From the NCBI GenBank assembly GCA_028874215.1, contig JAPPLF010000061.1, positions 1 through 64,000 of the forward strand: a stretch of DNA of 64,000 nucleotides, given 5' to 3'. Below are positions 3 through 54,364 of the stretch, one piece after another. This DNA is from Acidobacteriota bacterium (GTDB taxonomy: Bacteria; Acidobacteriota; UBA6911; RPQK01; JAJDTT01). Each line of letters opens with the position of its first letter. Within the stretch, counting starts at the first letter, position 1. The translations under genes and the position numbers were made by a program. The notes beneath the pieces are model-generated. The model worked only from the letters and a program-made list of their open reading frames with translations, ran no database searches and was not told where the DNA came from.

Positions 3-53
3 ATCGACAAAGTGGAGCGCCTTGCTACACGTATTTGCGGGACATCACACTAG
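3..53 (+). CDS. 3' end of a truncated gene, product unknown
   Basis: An open frame runs from the window edge to a TAG at 51-53 and would encode the last 16 residues (IDKVERLATRICGTSH) of a plus-strand protein. The stop is followed immediately by a stem-loop and by the hairpin family found after other genes in this window, in the matching orientation, which supports a real gene end here. The remnant is too short to assign a family. It could also be chance coding. Confidence 0.3.
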   Translation: MDKVERLATRICGTSH

Positions 54-56
54 GAG

Positions 57-207
57 GAGGGGACTGTTAGTCCCCCTCTGCGGCGACTTTCCTGTCGCCC
101 ACTGGGACAGGCAACTATCTTGTCGCTTGGTCTTCTTGCCGGAAAGTGTAAAGGGGGGACTACCGTCCCCCCTACCCCCCCTGTCGGCGGTTGGAAACCG
201 CCGCTCC
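57..207 (+). repeat. Composite intergenic hairpin element, copy A
   Basis: This intergenic block holds a chain of stem-loops: 57-78 (GAGGGGACT...AGTCCCCCTC, one bulge), 82-99 (GGCGAC-TTTCCT-GTCGCC), a degenerate relative at 110-126, 153-172 (GGGGGGAC-TACC-GTCCCCCC) and 186-202 (GGCGGTT-GGA-AACCGCC). From 82 to 207 it is collinear with the reverse complement of 30247-30369, including the shared linker TGCCGGAAAGTGTA (137-150 here). It lies between the presumed end of an upstream plus-strand gene and the end of the minus-strand SDR gene, so it may end transcription from both sides. Confidence 0.8.
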
Positions 208-234
208 AAGTCGCCGCTCCAAGGCGTCGTTCCC

Positions 235-6777: not shown

Positions 6778-6819
6778 GGCGGCTGGAAAGCCGCCGGTCC
6801 GGGCGACAAGAATGTCGCC
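6778..6819 (-). repeat. Pair of loop-conserved 3' hairpins
   Basis: Two stem-loops lie 20 bases beyond the TPR gene stop. They are 6778-6795 (plus-strand reading GGCGGC-TGGAAA-GCCGCC) and 6802-6819 (GGCGAC-AAGAAT-GTCGCC). Read in the sense of the TPR gene the loops are TTTCCA and ATTCTT. No T-tract follows, so they are not textbook rho-independent terminators. Confidence 0.8.
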
Positions 6820-6838
6820 GCTCCAGACGCCGCTCCTA

Positions 6839-28897: not shown

Positions 28898-28903
28898 CGG
28901 AGC

Positions 28904-28947
28904 GGCGACTTTCCTGTCGCCGATTGGAGCGGCGGATTCCAACCGCC
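28904..28947 (+). repeat. Pair of loop-conserved 3' hairpins between tandem paralogues
   Basis: Six bases after the stop of copy 1 is GGCGAC-TTTCCT-GTCGCC (28904-28921), then a second, decayed member at 28931-28947 (GGCGGATTCCAACCGCC, one arm base off a perfect stem). Both follow the GGAGC lead-in found elsewhere and are in gene-sense orientation. They fill most of the gap between the duplicated genes. Confidence 0.8.
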
Positions 28948-30243: not shown

Positions 30244-30246
30244 TGG

Positions 30247-30369
30247 GAGCGGCGGTTTTCTTACCGCCGGTTGGAGATTAGGCGGACGGAGTCCCCCTGT
30301 ACACTTTCCGGCAGGAAGAGCAGGCGACAGGAAAGTCGCCTGTCCCAATGGGCGACAAGAATGTCGCCC
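30247..30369 (-). repeat. Composite intergenic hairpin element, copy B
   Basis: Between two convergent genes lie 30251-30268 (plus reading GGCGGT-TTTCTT-ACCGCC, sense to the upstream BNR gene), 30321-30342 (CAGGCGAC-AGGAAA-GTCGCCTG) and 30350-30369 (GGGCGAC-AAGAAT-GTCGCCC), the last two sense to the TauD gene. Read on the minus strand the block is collinear with copy A at 82-207, including TGCCGGAAAGTGTA (here 30313-30300). The last hairpin begins three bases after the TauD stop. Confidence 0.85.
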
Positions 30370-30372
30370 CTC

Positions 30373-31197
30373 CTAACGCGGCCTCTCTCCCTTGATGGTC
30401 ACGCGCAGGCCGCGGCGGCGGTTGGGATAGTAGTCCCACAGGGCGTAGTGCTGGGCGCAGCGGTTGTCCCAGAACGCCACCGATCCGGGGCTCCACCGGA
30501 AACGGCACTGGAACATGGGGCTGGCGGCGTGCTCCACCAGGAATCCGAGGACGGCGTCGCTCTCACTCTTTGAAAGCTGGACGATACGGGTGGTGAACAG
30601 GCGGTTGACGAAGAGCGCCTTGCGTCCGCTCACCGGGTGCGTCCTGACGACGGGATGCTCCGATCTGGGAAAGGTCTTCCCCTCATCGTCGGAGTCGTCG
30701 TAACGGCCGCGGTAGACCTGCTCCCCGTCGTGGACGGCGGTCATTCCTTCGAGCATCCGCCGCATCGGCGCCGAAAGGGACTCGTAGGCCGCGTACATGT
30801 TGGCGAACAGAGTGTCGCCCCCCACCGGCGGCACCTCCAGCATCTGAAAGATCGTCCCCAGAGGCGGCTCCCGGTCGCAGGAGACGTCCGAGTGCCAGTC
30901 CTCTCCGGCGATCCGGCGGGTGTTCTCGTCGGCGTAGATTTCCATGACTTCGGGATGGCCGTCGACCAGGCGGGGCCATGCGGGATGAATATGCAGTTCA
31001 CCGAAATTGCGGCCCAGCGCCTTCTGCTGGGCCGGGGTCATGGACTGGCCGCGGAAAAAGAGGACGCAGTGTTCGGCAAGTGCGTTGGAGAGGGCATCCA
31101 CCAACTCCGCCCCAAGCGGCCGGGAGAGGTCGATGCCGTGCACTTCGGCGCCGCAATGACCGGTCACTTTCCTGAATTCAAGATTGGGAGCCGGCAT
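30373..31197 (-). CDS. TauD/TfdA-family Fe(II)/2-oxoglutarate dioxygenase
   Basis: 274 residues with the family iron ligands: WHSDVSCDREPP (His-x-Asp) at about residue 115 and a distal His in DNRCAQHYALWDY. The 2-oxoglutarate-binding Arg is probably in RRRGLRVTIKGE. The N-terminal GAEVHGIDLSRPL and VLFFRGQ are also typical. Members hydroxylate taurine, alkyl sulfates, aryloxy acids and similar compounds, and the substrate here is not predictable. Start at 31197 by homology; the ribosome-binding site is weak. It is a single gene between hairpin elements. Confidence 0.9.
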   Translation of the reverse strand: MPAPNLEFRKVTGHCGAEVHGIDLSRPLGAELVDALSNALAEHCVLFFRGQSMTPAQQKALGRNFGELHIHPAWPRLVDGHPEVMEIYADENTRRIAGEDWHSDVSCDREPPLGTIFQMLEVPPVGGDTLFANMYAAYESLSAPMRRMLEGMTAVHDGEQVYRGRYDDSDDEGKTFPRSEHPVVRTHPVSGRKALFVNRLFTTRIVQLSKSESDAVLGFLVEHAASPMFQCRFRWSPGSVAFWDNRCAQHYALWDYYPNRRRGLRVTIKGERPR

Positions 31198-31264: not shown

Positions 31265-31284
31265 GAGGGACAAGACTGTCCCTC
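31265..31284 (-). repeat. Loop-conserved 3' hairpin, GAGGGAC stem
   Basis: GAGGGAC-AAGACT-GTCCCTC on the plus strand, a perfect 7-bp stem with a 6-nt loop (AGTCTT in minus-strand sense). It lies about 48 bases beyond the stop of the CocE-type gene and upstream of TauD. It is the same design as the GGCGAC hairpins but with a different stem. Confidence 0.65.
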
Positions 31285-38394: not shown

Positions 38395-38497
38395 CGGCGG
38401 CAAGAAAGCCGCCGTTCCCAGTGGGCGACAAGAAAGTCGCCCCTCCGATCGGCGGCAAGAAAGCCGCCGCTCCCGATGGGCGGCTAGGATGTCGCCC
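38395..38497 (-). repeat. Tandem array of four loop-conserved hairpins
   Basis: Four stem-loops at 38395-38414, 38423-38442, 38450-38469 and 38478-38497, each with a 7-bp stem and a 6-nt loop. Stems alternate CGGCGGC/GCCGCCG and GGGCGAC/GTCGCCC; the fourth is GGGCGGC/GTCGCCC with one G-T pair. Plus-strand loops are AAGAAA three times and TAGGAT. Spacers of 7-8 bases alternate as well. In gene sense (minus strand) the array follows the BNR gene at 38484-39659, and its first unit overlaps that gene's last codons. Confidence 0.88.
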
Positions 38498-39659
38498 CTC
38501 CGAGGCGCCAGTGGAGGGCTGCCATGGTGCGGCTCCCCACCACCCGGCCCCGGTGGTTCAAGTCCGTATTTTCGCAGACGGTGACGATGGTGCCGTCGGG
38601 GTAGACGACGCTGTCCGGGTAGCCGTGCCCGTGCATGAGCGAATAGGTCGTCGGGTCCCAGGTCCGTCCTCCGTCGGAGCTGATGCGCGCCCGGATCCCG
38701 GCCAGCTCGTAGGGGTAGCGCTGCAACCAGATGGCCGCGATCCTTCCGTCGGGAACCTGGACGAACTCGCCGGGGATGCTGCCCCGCAGGTCGAAAAGCC
38801 TGGGGTTGACCCAGGTTCGGCCGCCGTCGGAAGACTCGGCGATCACCCCGTTTTTCAGTACCCACTGCTCGGTGGGGCTGGCTCCGGTCTTCTCCCGGAA
38901 GTCGGGTGGGTCCTCCTGGAGCATCGGTCTCTGGGCTCGGATGTAGGCCAACATCCGGTTCGAGTCCTTGACCGCCATCAAGGTGCTCTCGGCCGAATAG
39001 GGTAGGATCAGGGTCCGGTCTCCCCAGCTCCGGCCCCCGTCCCGGGACCGGAAGATGTGGTCGTGGAAACCCCGAATTCGAGGGTTGTCCCATTCGTCGA
39101 CCCCGTCGCGGTGGCGGAGGGTCACGGTGATCATGGCGGTTCCGTCCGGATGCTGGTAGACGTCGCTCCACCCGGAGCCGCTGAAGGTGTAGGGGCTCAC
39201 GTCCAGGGGAAAGGGCTCGCTCCAGGACTCACCGTAGTCCGTGGAGCGCTGGACATAGGTCACCGAGTGGTCCGGCGCGTCGTGGATCAGGATGAAAACG
39301 TCGTCGTCCAGTATTCCGAACCCGCCGCCGGTGCCCACCGGGAGCTTTCGCATGGTCCAGGTCCTGCCGCGGTCCGTGGACTCCCACAAATAGCCGCTGC
39401 CCGCCGCGAAGACGCGGCCGTCCGGGGTCAGGCCGGTCCGCGTGTCGGTCCGGGAGAAGGGGCTGGACATGGGGTAGATCCTGGCGCCCTGGATGGGAAT
39501 CGCCTTTCGGGTGTGGGGAATCTCGTACGAAAAGGGGACGGGAACGGCGGTTCCCTGGTCTCCTCTGCCGGAAGCGGCGGCGCCTGGAACCACCTTCCCG
39601 CTCATGGCCAGGACCCCTGCTGCGGCAGTCTTCCGGAGGAAATCTCGGCGCCTGATCAT
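38484..39659 (-). CDS. BNR/Asp-box (sialidase-like) protein, Tat-exported
   Basis: 391 residues with a twin-arginine leader (RRRDFLRKTAAAGVLAMSG). Five intact Asp-boxes are seen: STDRGRTW, STDYGESW, SRDGGRSW, SSDGGRTW and SSDGGRTW. Tat export suggests folding before transport. The last five codons (Gly-Gly-Ala-Thr-Ser) and the TAG stop are encoded by one unit of the downstream hairpin array, so the repeat shaped the C-terminus. Sialidase catalytic motifs are not evident. It lies 160 bases upstream of another BNR gene on the same strand. Confidence 0.84.
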   Translation of the reverse strand: MIRRRDFLRKTAAAGVLAMSGKVVPGAAASGRGDQGTAVPVPFSYEIPHTRKAIPIQGARIYPMSSPFSRTDTRTGLTPDGRVFAAGSGYLWESTDRGRTWTMRKLPVGTGGGFGILDDDVFILIHDAPDHSVTYVQRSTDYGESWSEPFPLDVSPYTFSGSGWSDVYQHPDGTAMITVTLRHRDGVDEWDNPRIRGFHDHIFRSRDGGRSWGDRTLILPYSAESTLMAVKDSNRMLAYIRAQRPMLQEDPPDFREKTGASPTEQWVLKNGVIAESSDGGRTWVNPRLFDLRGSIPGEFVQVPDGRIAAIWLQRYPYELAGIRARISSDGGRTWDPTTYSLMHGHGYPDSVVYPDGTIVTVCENTDLNHRGRVVGSRTMAALHWRLGGATS

Positions 39660-54216: not shown

Positions 54217-54347
54217 GGGGGGACTGACGTCCCCCCTGGAAATCCCTCGCGGAGCCTGAAGCACGCCATTCCCGGCGACTGGTCAATCGCCGCTCCATAT
54301 CGCCGGGAATGGGTCGCTCCGCTCCCTCGGCGACAGGAATGTCGCCG
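54217..54347 (-). repeat. Intergenic hairpin cluster between convergent genes
   Basis: Three palindromes: 54217-54236 (GGGGGGAC-TGAC-GTCCCCCC, almost the same as 153-172), long arms 54268-54278 and 54300-54310 (ATTCCCGGCGA / TCGCCGGGAAT), and 54328-54347 (CGGCGAC-AGGAAT-GTCGCCG). The last one is 18 bases past the TonB receptor stop in its sense. The cluster lies between two convergent transcripts. Confidence 0.8.
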
Positions 54348-54364
54348 CTCCATGTCGCCGCTCC

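Follow-up and report, generated by a model that had tools for sequence, protein, structure and literature searches.

The window, a stretch of 64,000 nucleotides from an Acidobacteriota bacterium (contig JAPPLF010000061.1), harbors two look-alike hairpin clusters with collinear parts, copy A (about 53-207, plus strand) and copy B (30246-30373, minus strand). Read in the direction of copy A, the element starts with a GGAG head and a REP hairpin (H1), followed by CATTGGGACAG, a second REP hairpin (H2), TGCTCTTC, and a spacer of variable length. Then come the linker TGCCGGAAAGTGTA, a G-run hairpin (H3), and a C-rich stretch, and a terminal inverted REP (H4) closes the element with CTCC. Copy A is led by a G-run REP (53-75, plus; GGAG head at 53-56 and again at 56-59, stem GGGGACT/AGTCCCC, loop GTT), and a similar G-run unit also precedes composites at other loci. 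Its H1 (82-99, plus; GGCGAC-TTTCCT-GTCGCC) has a degenerate head, with TCTG as the tetranucleotide directly before the hairpin, and the stem of H2 (109-128, plus; consensus head GGAC) is degenerate. The conserved core linker (137-150, plus), H3 (153-172, plus; GGGGGGAC-TACC-GTCCCCCC), and H4 (186-207, plus) follow; the loop of H4 is one base short, and its CTCC tail reads GGAG in the complementary direction. At 208-232 (plus), copy A is adjoined by relics of additional REPs (AAGTCGCCGCTCC, AAGGCGTCGTTC), where the sister genome G002 has whole units. Copy B consists, on the minus strand, of a GGAG head with H1 (30351-30373; GGCGAC-ATTCTT-GTCGCC), an intact H2 (30322-30341; AGGCGAC-TTTCCT-GTCGCCT, head GGAC at 30345-30342), the core linker (30300-30313), H3 with one mismatch (30281-30297), and H4 with its CTCC tail (30246-30268).

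A first-pass annotation had described both clusters as collinear and the second hairpin of copy A as degenerate, and both statements hold. Its limits are revised: copy B extends from 30373 to 30246, including the GGAG head and the CTCC tail, and cluster A begins near 53 with the extra GGAG-headed G-run hairpin instead of at 82. With copy B as the query, blastn retrieves copy A at an E-value of 4.4e-23 (81% across bases 18-140 of the query). In the window, the linker TGCCGGAAAGTGTA has just two exact copies, at the two positions given; at up to three mismatches 3 matches stand against 3.2 expected, so that only the exact pair is meaningful. Across the genome, 2 exact occurrences are found among the matches listed and 3 at one mismatch (control, 3). 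The right flank of copy A (209-1400) matches neither flank of copy B (best E-value 0.08); this comparison refers to the right side of A, as only about 50 bases separate its left side from the contig start. Thus, no segmental duplication is seen, and such an origin of the two copies is not supported.

The window contains further REPs: a hairpin at 6802-6824 (minus), which a second one adjoins (6778-6833 overall); one between two similar genes at 28899-28921 (plus); a tandem array of four hairpins at 38396-38501 (no strand assigned), where G002 and G003 are shorter by about 56 bases, near two units; and a single hairpin in a convergent gap at 54329-54351 (minus). Another hairpin, GAGGGACA-GTCT-TGTCCCTC with a T-rich tail, lies at 31265-31284 between two codirectional genes. 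At the place corresponding to the 28.9 kb REP, G002 (L127, near 2683) carries a GTAG-headed hairpin, GTAG GGGCGGCC...GGCCGCCC, which resembles the REPs beside the transposase genes L068 and L070 and whose first 12 bases are absent from the window; it perhaps belongs to a second REP family in the genus. By eye, a stretch like ATCTCGTAAGTATATGATAATAA...AGTTAT...TCTATTCTCC recurs beside the REPs at L032 and L013 and also after the L037 gene (past 2376), possibly as another repeat family.

A third complete composite is found at C42:168112-168242 and is 88% identical to copy B. When 12 selected composites, taken from three species of the genus, are aligned, the order of parts is kept. Exceptions are L044 (G002) and L139 (G003), which have a different core linker, and L033 of the own genome, in which H2 lacks the GGGACAG linker; about 20 extra bases precede the core in three of the five aligned G002 copies and in L033. 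The aligned composites open with GGAG and close with CTCC, i.e. REP units in inverted orientation as in BIMEs and REPINs, and the ends pair with each other in the consensus fold. Mosaic or one-sided forms are common. In composite cores (e.g. L009, L033, L039), GTAG often stands a few bases before the stem of H3 (GTGTAGAGGGGGGAC), a canonical REP head within a GGAG-headed element. Overlapping blast matches about 28 bases apart at G002:C15:19557-19812 suggest a long head-to-tail REP array in L133.

The single REP unit comprises a GGAG head, a stem of 6-7 bp with paired changes, and a TTTYYT loop. It was surveyed in the window and 70 loci of the own genome (273 kb), namely 30 loci retrieved by blast and 40 regions surrounding pattern or blast matches; the loci were selected for head and loop, and the pattern part was not selected for stem pairing. 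Distinct sites defined as GGAG, one base, six free bases, [AT]TTC[CT]T, and six free bases number 104, and in 82 of them the stem pairs at all six positions (G-T allowed). In total, 573 of 624 stem positions are paired, compared to a mean of 498 after shuffling of the 3' arms (sd 6, highest of 1000 shuffles 520). Stem position 3 swaps between C-G and G-C, position 5 between A-T and G-C, and position 6 between C-G and T-A; the next outward (seventh) pair swaps as well, with 51 C-G and 17 G-C among the 82 sites. When the head is left free, the 5' foot tetranucleotide is conserved as GGAG in 77 of 98 cases (GGAC 6, GGAA 4), a share inflated by loci partly chosen for GGAG and counted on stems of common types. 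With head and loop constant and the stem paired but variable, the sequence is fixed in head and loop, and the stem mainly in shape. The GT[AG]G head of canonical REPs is replaced by GGAG and by some GGAC and GGAA. The hairpins are a REP-like family of another head type.

The family is dispersed in its genome, as blastn, a pattern search, and a covariance model agree in showing; a genome-wide search had been proposed by the first-pass annotation, which had named two copies confined to a larger duplication as the outcome speaking against a modular element, a situation that did not arise. In the own genome, blastn with copy B reports at least 71 matches up to an E-value of 10, with 40 out of 211 candidates scored, and the pattern GGAG-N7-TTTYYT occurs 147 times, compared to 25 for the reversed control. 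These numbers characterize a dispersed short palindrome, as REPs and BIMEs are, and reject a chance origin of the likeness. Among 100 relatives, blastn (E up to 1e-5) detects copies in four genomes, exactly the four members of the genus, so that the proposed search of relatives did find the element, confined to the genus by this method. The covariance model was built from 8 composites of the own genome, G002, and G003, and 40 genomes were searched, with at most 82 candidates scored in each. It gives at least 38 matches in the own genome and at least 50, 52, and 56 in three genus mates; matches are not equivalent to distinct copies, as some places are matched on both strands, and those in the three source genomes arise partly by construction. 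Beyond the genus it matches seven times in a member of the class (G019) and once in a member of the order (G013), with no match in 34 of the 36 non-genus relatives. Rfam matched no family in the window except a tRNA.

Two Y1 transposase genes are present in the own genome, and one of them reads as the REP-associated tyrosine transposase (RAYT) that had been suggested as a partner to look for, with hairpins of this kind on both sides. This gene (C53, L036/L047) encodes a predicted HUH transposase with the motifs NHVH and YIRENP, the latter of the Y---NP type. Its product matches Pfam PF01797 (Y1_Tnp) above the cut-off; the best NCBIfam match, NF047646 (REP-associated tyrosine transposase), scores 74.6 bits and stays below the cut-off of 80 bits. 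Its similarity to TnpAREP (PDB 4ER8) has an E-value of 0.002 for the single sequence and 4e-6 as a profile. The gene is of low copy number, as is typical of RAYTs: the own genome has one copy with flanking hairpins, and its genus mates have two or three matches each. RAYT and element co-occur in all four genus genomes, and GGAG hairpins lie beside five of seven RAYT gene places (own genome, L048, L074, L075, and L213; GGAG- or CTCC-edged). Of the other two, L049 (G002) lacks flanking REPs that convince, and L050 (G003) has a single weak one. At L075 (G001), compact inverted pairs, about 52 bases in length, directly adjoin the gene. Immediately upstream of the RAYT in the own genome stand two full-length hairpins with GGAA heads and GGCGATT stems, unlike the GGCGAC/GGCGGT of the composite. 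The RAYT family extends to 27 of 100 relatives (E up to 1e-10) and to 58 of 396 genomes of the phylum (E up to 1e-15); RAYTs of the wider kind are thus common without this element. Identity amounts to 59-68% within the genus and to at most 53% elsewhere, with one exception, G371 from another family (62% over 111 residues), whose RAYT (L149, G371:C4) groups with the genus RAYTs in trees, a placement for which horizontal transfer is a possible explanation. The second Y1 gene (L037 1459-2376, C11) encodes 305 amino acids with the motif GNHYH; by eye, no hairpins of the family adjoin it in 1.5 kb, and it was set aside as a partner of the element. Its product could be of the REP-less subclass 2.1 or 2.3 type.

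The element is very probably a BIME, i.e. a REP mosaic with inverted GGAG heads at both ends, belonging to a RAYT-REP system of the genus. Anatomy, association, and turnover indicate that it is probably mobilized by the RAYT, the related single-strand transposase encoded in this genome. The first-pass annotation had considered a miniature mobile or REP/BIME-like unit, a reading supported by the dispersal, the RAYT, and sites without hairpins. Each REP would fold on single-stranded DNA, and the RAYT (HUH motif NHVH, tyrosine in YIRENP) would read head and loop, the stem supplying shape only. The enzyme would then cut near the hairpin and copy or move single REPs and whole BIMEs. In the published cross-pairing model, CT is selected by guide bases A3 and G4, so that cleavage at CT would still be expected with a GGAG guide.

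Turnover between species was followed at nine sites for which both sides were available for a comparison with G002, some of them chosen as G002 carries elements there. Empty sites and target-site duplications had both been proposed as checks. The former exist: a script search finds no family hairpin in G002 at five of the nine sites (6.8 kb, 28.9 kb, B, L083, and L029). Two of the five places carry hairpins of another kind, that of L029 CTCC-edged ones with another stem and loop and that of 28.9 kb the GTAG-headed hairpin mentioned above; as far as seen, only those of 6.8 kb, B, and L083 have neither family hairpins nor others. At the remaining four (A, 38.4 kb, L033, and L021), G002 carries family hairpins in other unit numbers, so that part of the change is gain or loss of units at old sites. 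Convincing target-site duplications are absent by eye at A, B, and C42, as a Y1 single-strand mechanism predicts. The L083 insertion is bordered on both sides by a 7-base direct repeat, GAAAAGC, which may be due to chance.

For copy B alone, a different history is possible, if somewhat less likely than an insertion: it could be the scar of a repeat-to-repeat recombination that deleted a gene. At the place of B, G002 (L127 4859-6735) has 1877 bases with a reading frame of 541 codons and no family hairpin, the window lacks this frame, and G001 shows the start of a stretch similar to that of G002. G001 also speaks for this history, as its left junction carries a GGAG hairpin and a REP pair is located some 50 bases ahead of its right border. 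However, the two G001 sides lie on different contigs, no G003 contig was obtained for this place, and B is as complete as its 88% identical counterpart on C42 and need not be a hybrid. Within the preferred BIME reading, local gain and loss of units, and perhaps the gene loss at site B, would proceed via recombination or slippage between repeats.

The hairpins are mostly extragenic. According to a simple codon-score gene caller, 89 of 102 lie outside called genes, compared to about 20% expected, and the remaining 13 are all within about 130 bases of an end of a called gene. Of 53 clusters with both neighbors (14 further clusters lie at an edge), 27 occupy convergent, 22 codirectional, and 4 divergent gaps; the 29 window gaps of at least 20 bases comprise 6 convergent, 14 codirectional, and 9 divergent ones. 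Divergent gaps are thus rarer among clusters (4/53 vs. 9/29, p 0.01), and copy B itself takes up the space that separates two convergent reading frames (30243 and 30373). This distribution would also suit hairpins that are kept as RNA or DNA signals, such as bidirectional terminators or stabilizers of mRNA 3' ends, and that have spread because they are useful, the RAYT being incidental. Paired stem changes are in line with RNA as well as with DNA, and the 28.9 kb REP has one terminator-like match overlapping it. Yet no such match falls on B, and the 2.6 kb around it contain 3 compared to 1.9 in shuffled sequence, by which intrinsic terminators are rejected. In addition, Rfam reports nothing but the tRNA in the window, a terminator needs neither a constant loop nor a constant unpaired GGAG, and RAYTs of other lineages are hairpin-flanked as well, so that conservation as signals is an improbable account of the family. 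Least credible is a MITE derived from a DDE insertion sequence, whose terminal inverted repeats would be the outer hairpins: the ends do form inverted repeats that pair with each other in the consensus fold, but they are REPs that also stand alone, the units occur singly or in variable mosaics, and target-site duplications are missing by eye at A, B, and C42.

As a BIME, the element resembles the REP/BIME/REPIN-RAYT (TnpAREP) systems of E. coli and Stenotrophomonas in its short intergenic palindromes with a conserved 5' foot tetranucleotide, its inverted pairs and mosaics, and its REP-flanked RAYT gene. It differs from them in the head (GGAG instead of GT[AG]G), the 6-base TTTYYT loop, and the long composite of about 130 bases with a separate G-run core, and its RAYT has Y and R at the columns of F98 and H101 of the E. 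coli enzyme. A perfect stem and an informative loop are shared with group 3 TnpAREP, for whose cleavage the foot motif and loop bases matter and a perfect stem counts for more than most stem letters (PMC8266576). Palindromes with a foot tag that occur as singles, dimers, and groups are also known from the GTAG and CGTC super-families (Di Nocera 2013, PMC3733652); their tags are GTAG (variants GYAG, GYRG, GTRG, GTMG, GTGG) and CGTC (TGTC, CCTC), and no word in the main text begins with GGAG. High-copy atypical hairpins beside a Y1 gene have a parallel in class 3, with about 600 CnGA-footed hairpins in Solibacter usitatus; in contrast to class 3 (Y----Q), the RAYT here is of the Y---NP type, i.e. 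class 2, and by eye nearest to 2.7 (PMC6006769). That source assigns GT[AG]G feet to subclasses 2.2, 2.4, 2.5, 2.7, and 2.8, gives no such foot for 2.6 and class 3 (CnGA in the latter), and no REPs for 2.1 and 2.3. REP heads are elsewhere described as GT(A/G)G (PMC2817692), and a study that counted candidate REPs in three Acidobacteriota contains no word beginning with GGAG (PMC12306157). No published report of GGAG-headed REPs was found in a search that covered few subscription papers; the listed extragenic-palindrome papers mentioning GGAG look like strain-typing and similar studies. The family is a real REP/BIME family with a RAYT, of a known kind, with a head type not found in print and a long composite form.

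Head type and RAYT residues were compared at 102 distinct RAYT loci, 100 from the phylum of the window and two from Verrucomicrobiota MAGs. Heads of the flanking repeated hairpins were called blind to the protein, and the column of E. coli H101 was set by alignment to 4ER8, with the roles of residues taken from PMC6006769. H at this column is accompanied by GT[AG]G in 13 and by GGA[GAC] in 2 loci, R by GT heads in 5 and by GGA heads in 48; the other rows have mixed heads (4 R, 3 H), no call (12 R, 7 H), or another residue or a gap (8). The link has a Fisher p of 2.4e-8, a statistic free of phylogeny, and as it was first noticed on 32 of the 102 loci, the larger test is not independent of those. 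Stricter head calls leave 45 loci (H-GT 10, H-GGA 0, R-GT 2, R-GGA 33). When 167 columns were ranked on 72 loci by their association with the head, own positions 62, 57, 208 (E. coli 101), 215 (108), 205 (98), and 68 came out on top, forming two stretches, one around E. coli 98-108 and one just before or at the strand beta1. For the E. coli enzyme, contacts to GTAG are described in beta1, in the surroundings of beta4, and at the C-terminal end (PMC8266576). Positions 98 and 101 follow the head about equally well, and the sisters L150 and L052 (100/97) differ in head and at 98, not at 101, so that no single residue is the switch. The occasional R at 101 in subclasses 2.5 and 2.7, which are associated with GT[AG]G (PMC6006769), also counts against 101 alone.

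A quick tree computed after removal of the motif columns puts the genus RAYTs (R, GGAG) into a group of 20 rows, mostly H with GT[AG]G, apart from a clade of 52 rows that are mostly R/GGA (supports 96 and 99). A careful tree of 51 hand-picked rows of the 102 separates the genus RAYTs (100/97) from the R/GGA rows (97/97) and resolves no nearest group for the former; the quick-tree placement is thus not confirmed. A topology that unites every R/GGA RAYT in one clade is compatible with the data (AU p 0.068), and shared ancestry may still lie behind the link. Only three independent residue changes fall on supported branches; over these, the head changes on average the same way 1.6 times and the other way 0.1 times, with no difference 1.3 times. 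A search with an H-type RAYT in 38 genomes of the class gave no new gene place for the test. With somewhat less than even confidence, it is proposed that RAYTs use at least two guide codes, most in the phylum GGA[GAC] and fewer GT[AG]G, that the choice resides in few residues, and that the genus represents a natural specificity swap. Some residues of the proposed code would sit before and at the beta1-aligned strand and others around the W...R stretch close to beta4 (E. coli 98, 101, 108), and the genus would have shifted both RAYT residues and REP heads away from GTAG-reading relatives.

The link between head and residues is the part most worth specialist attention. The matching of individual RAYTs to their REPs is only partly known, with three enzymes studied (PMC8266576), and a large natural collection of loci at which guide tetranucleotide and a few protein residues co-vary suggests direct mutants to test. 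Screens based on GT[AG]G, e.g. the RNAMotif rules quoted in PMC6006769, would miss REPs of this type. As published elements mostly start with GTAG, the GGAG start tag of this family may help to show how RAYTs choose their DNA.
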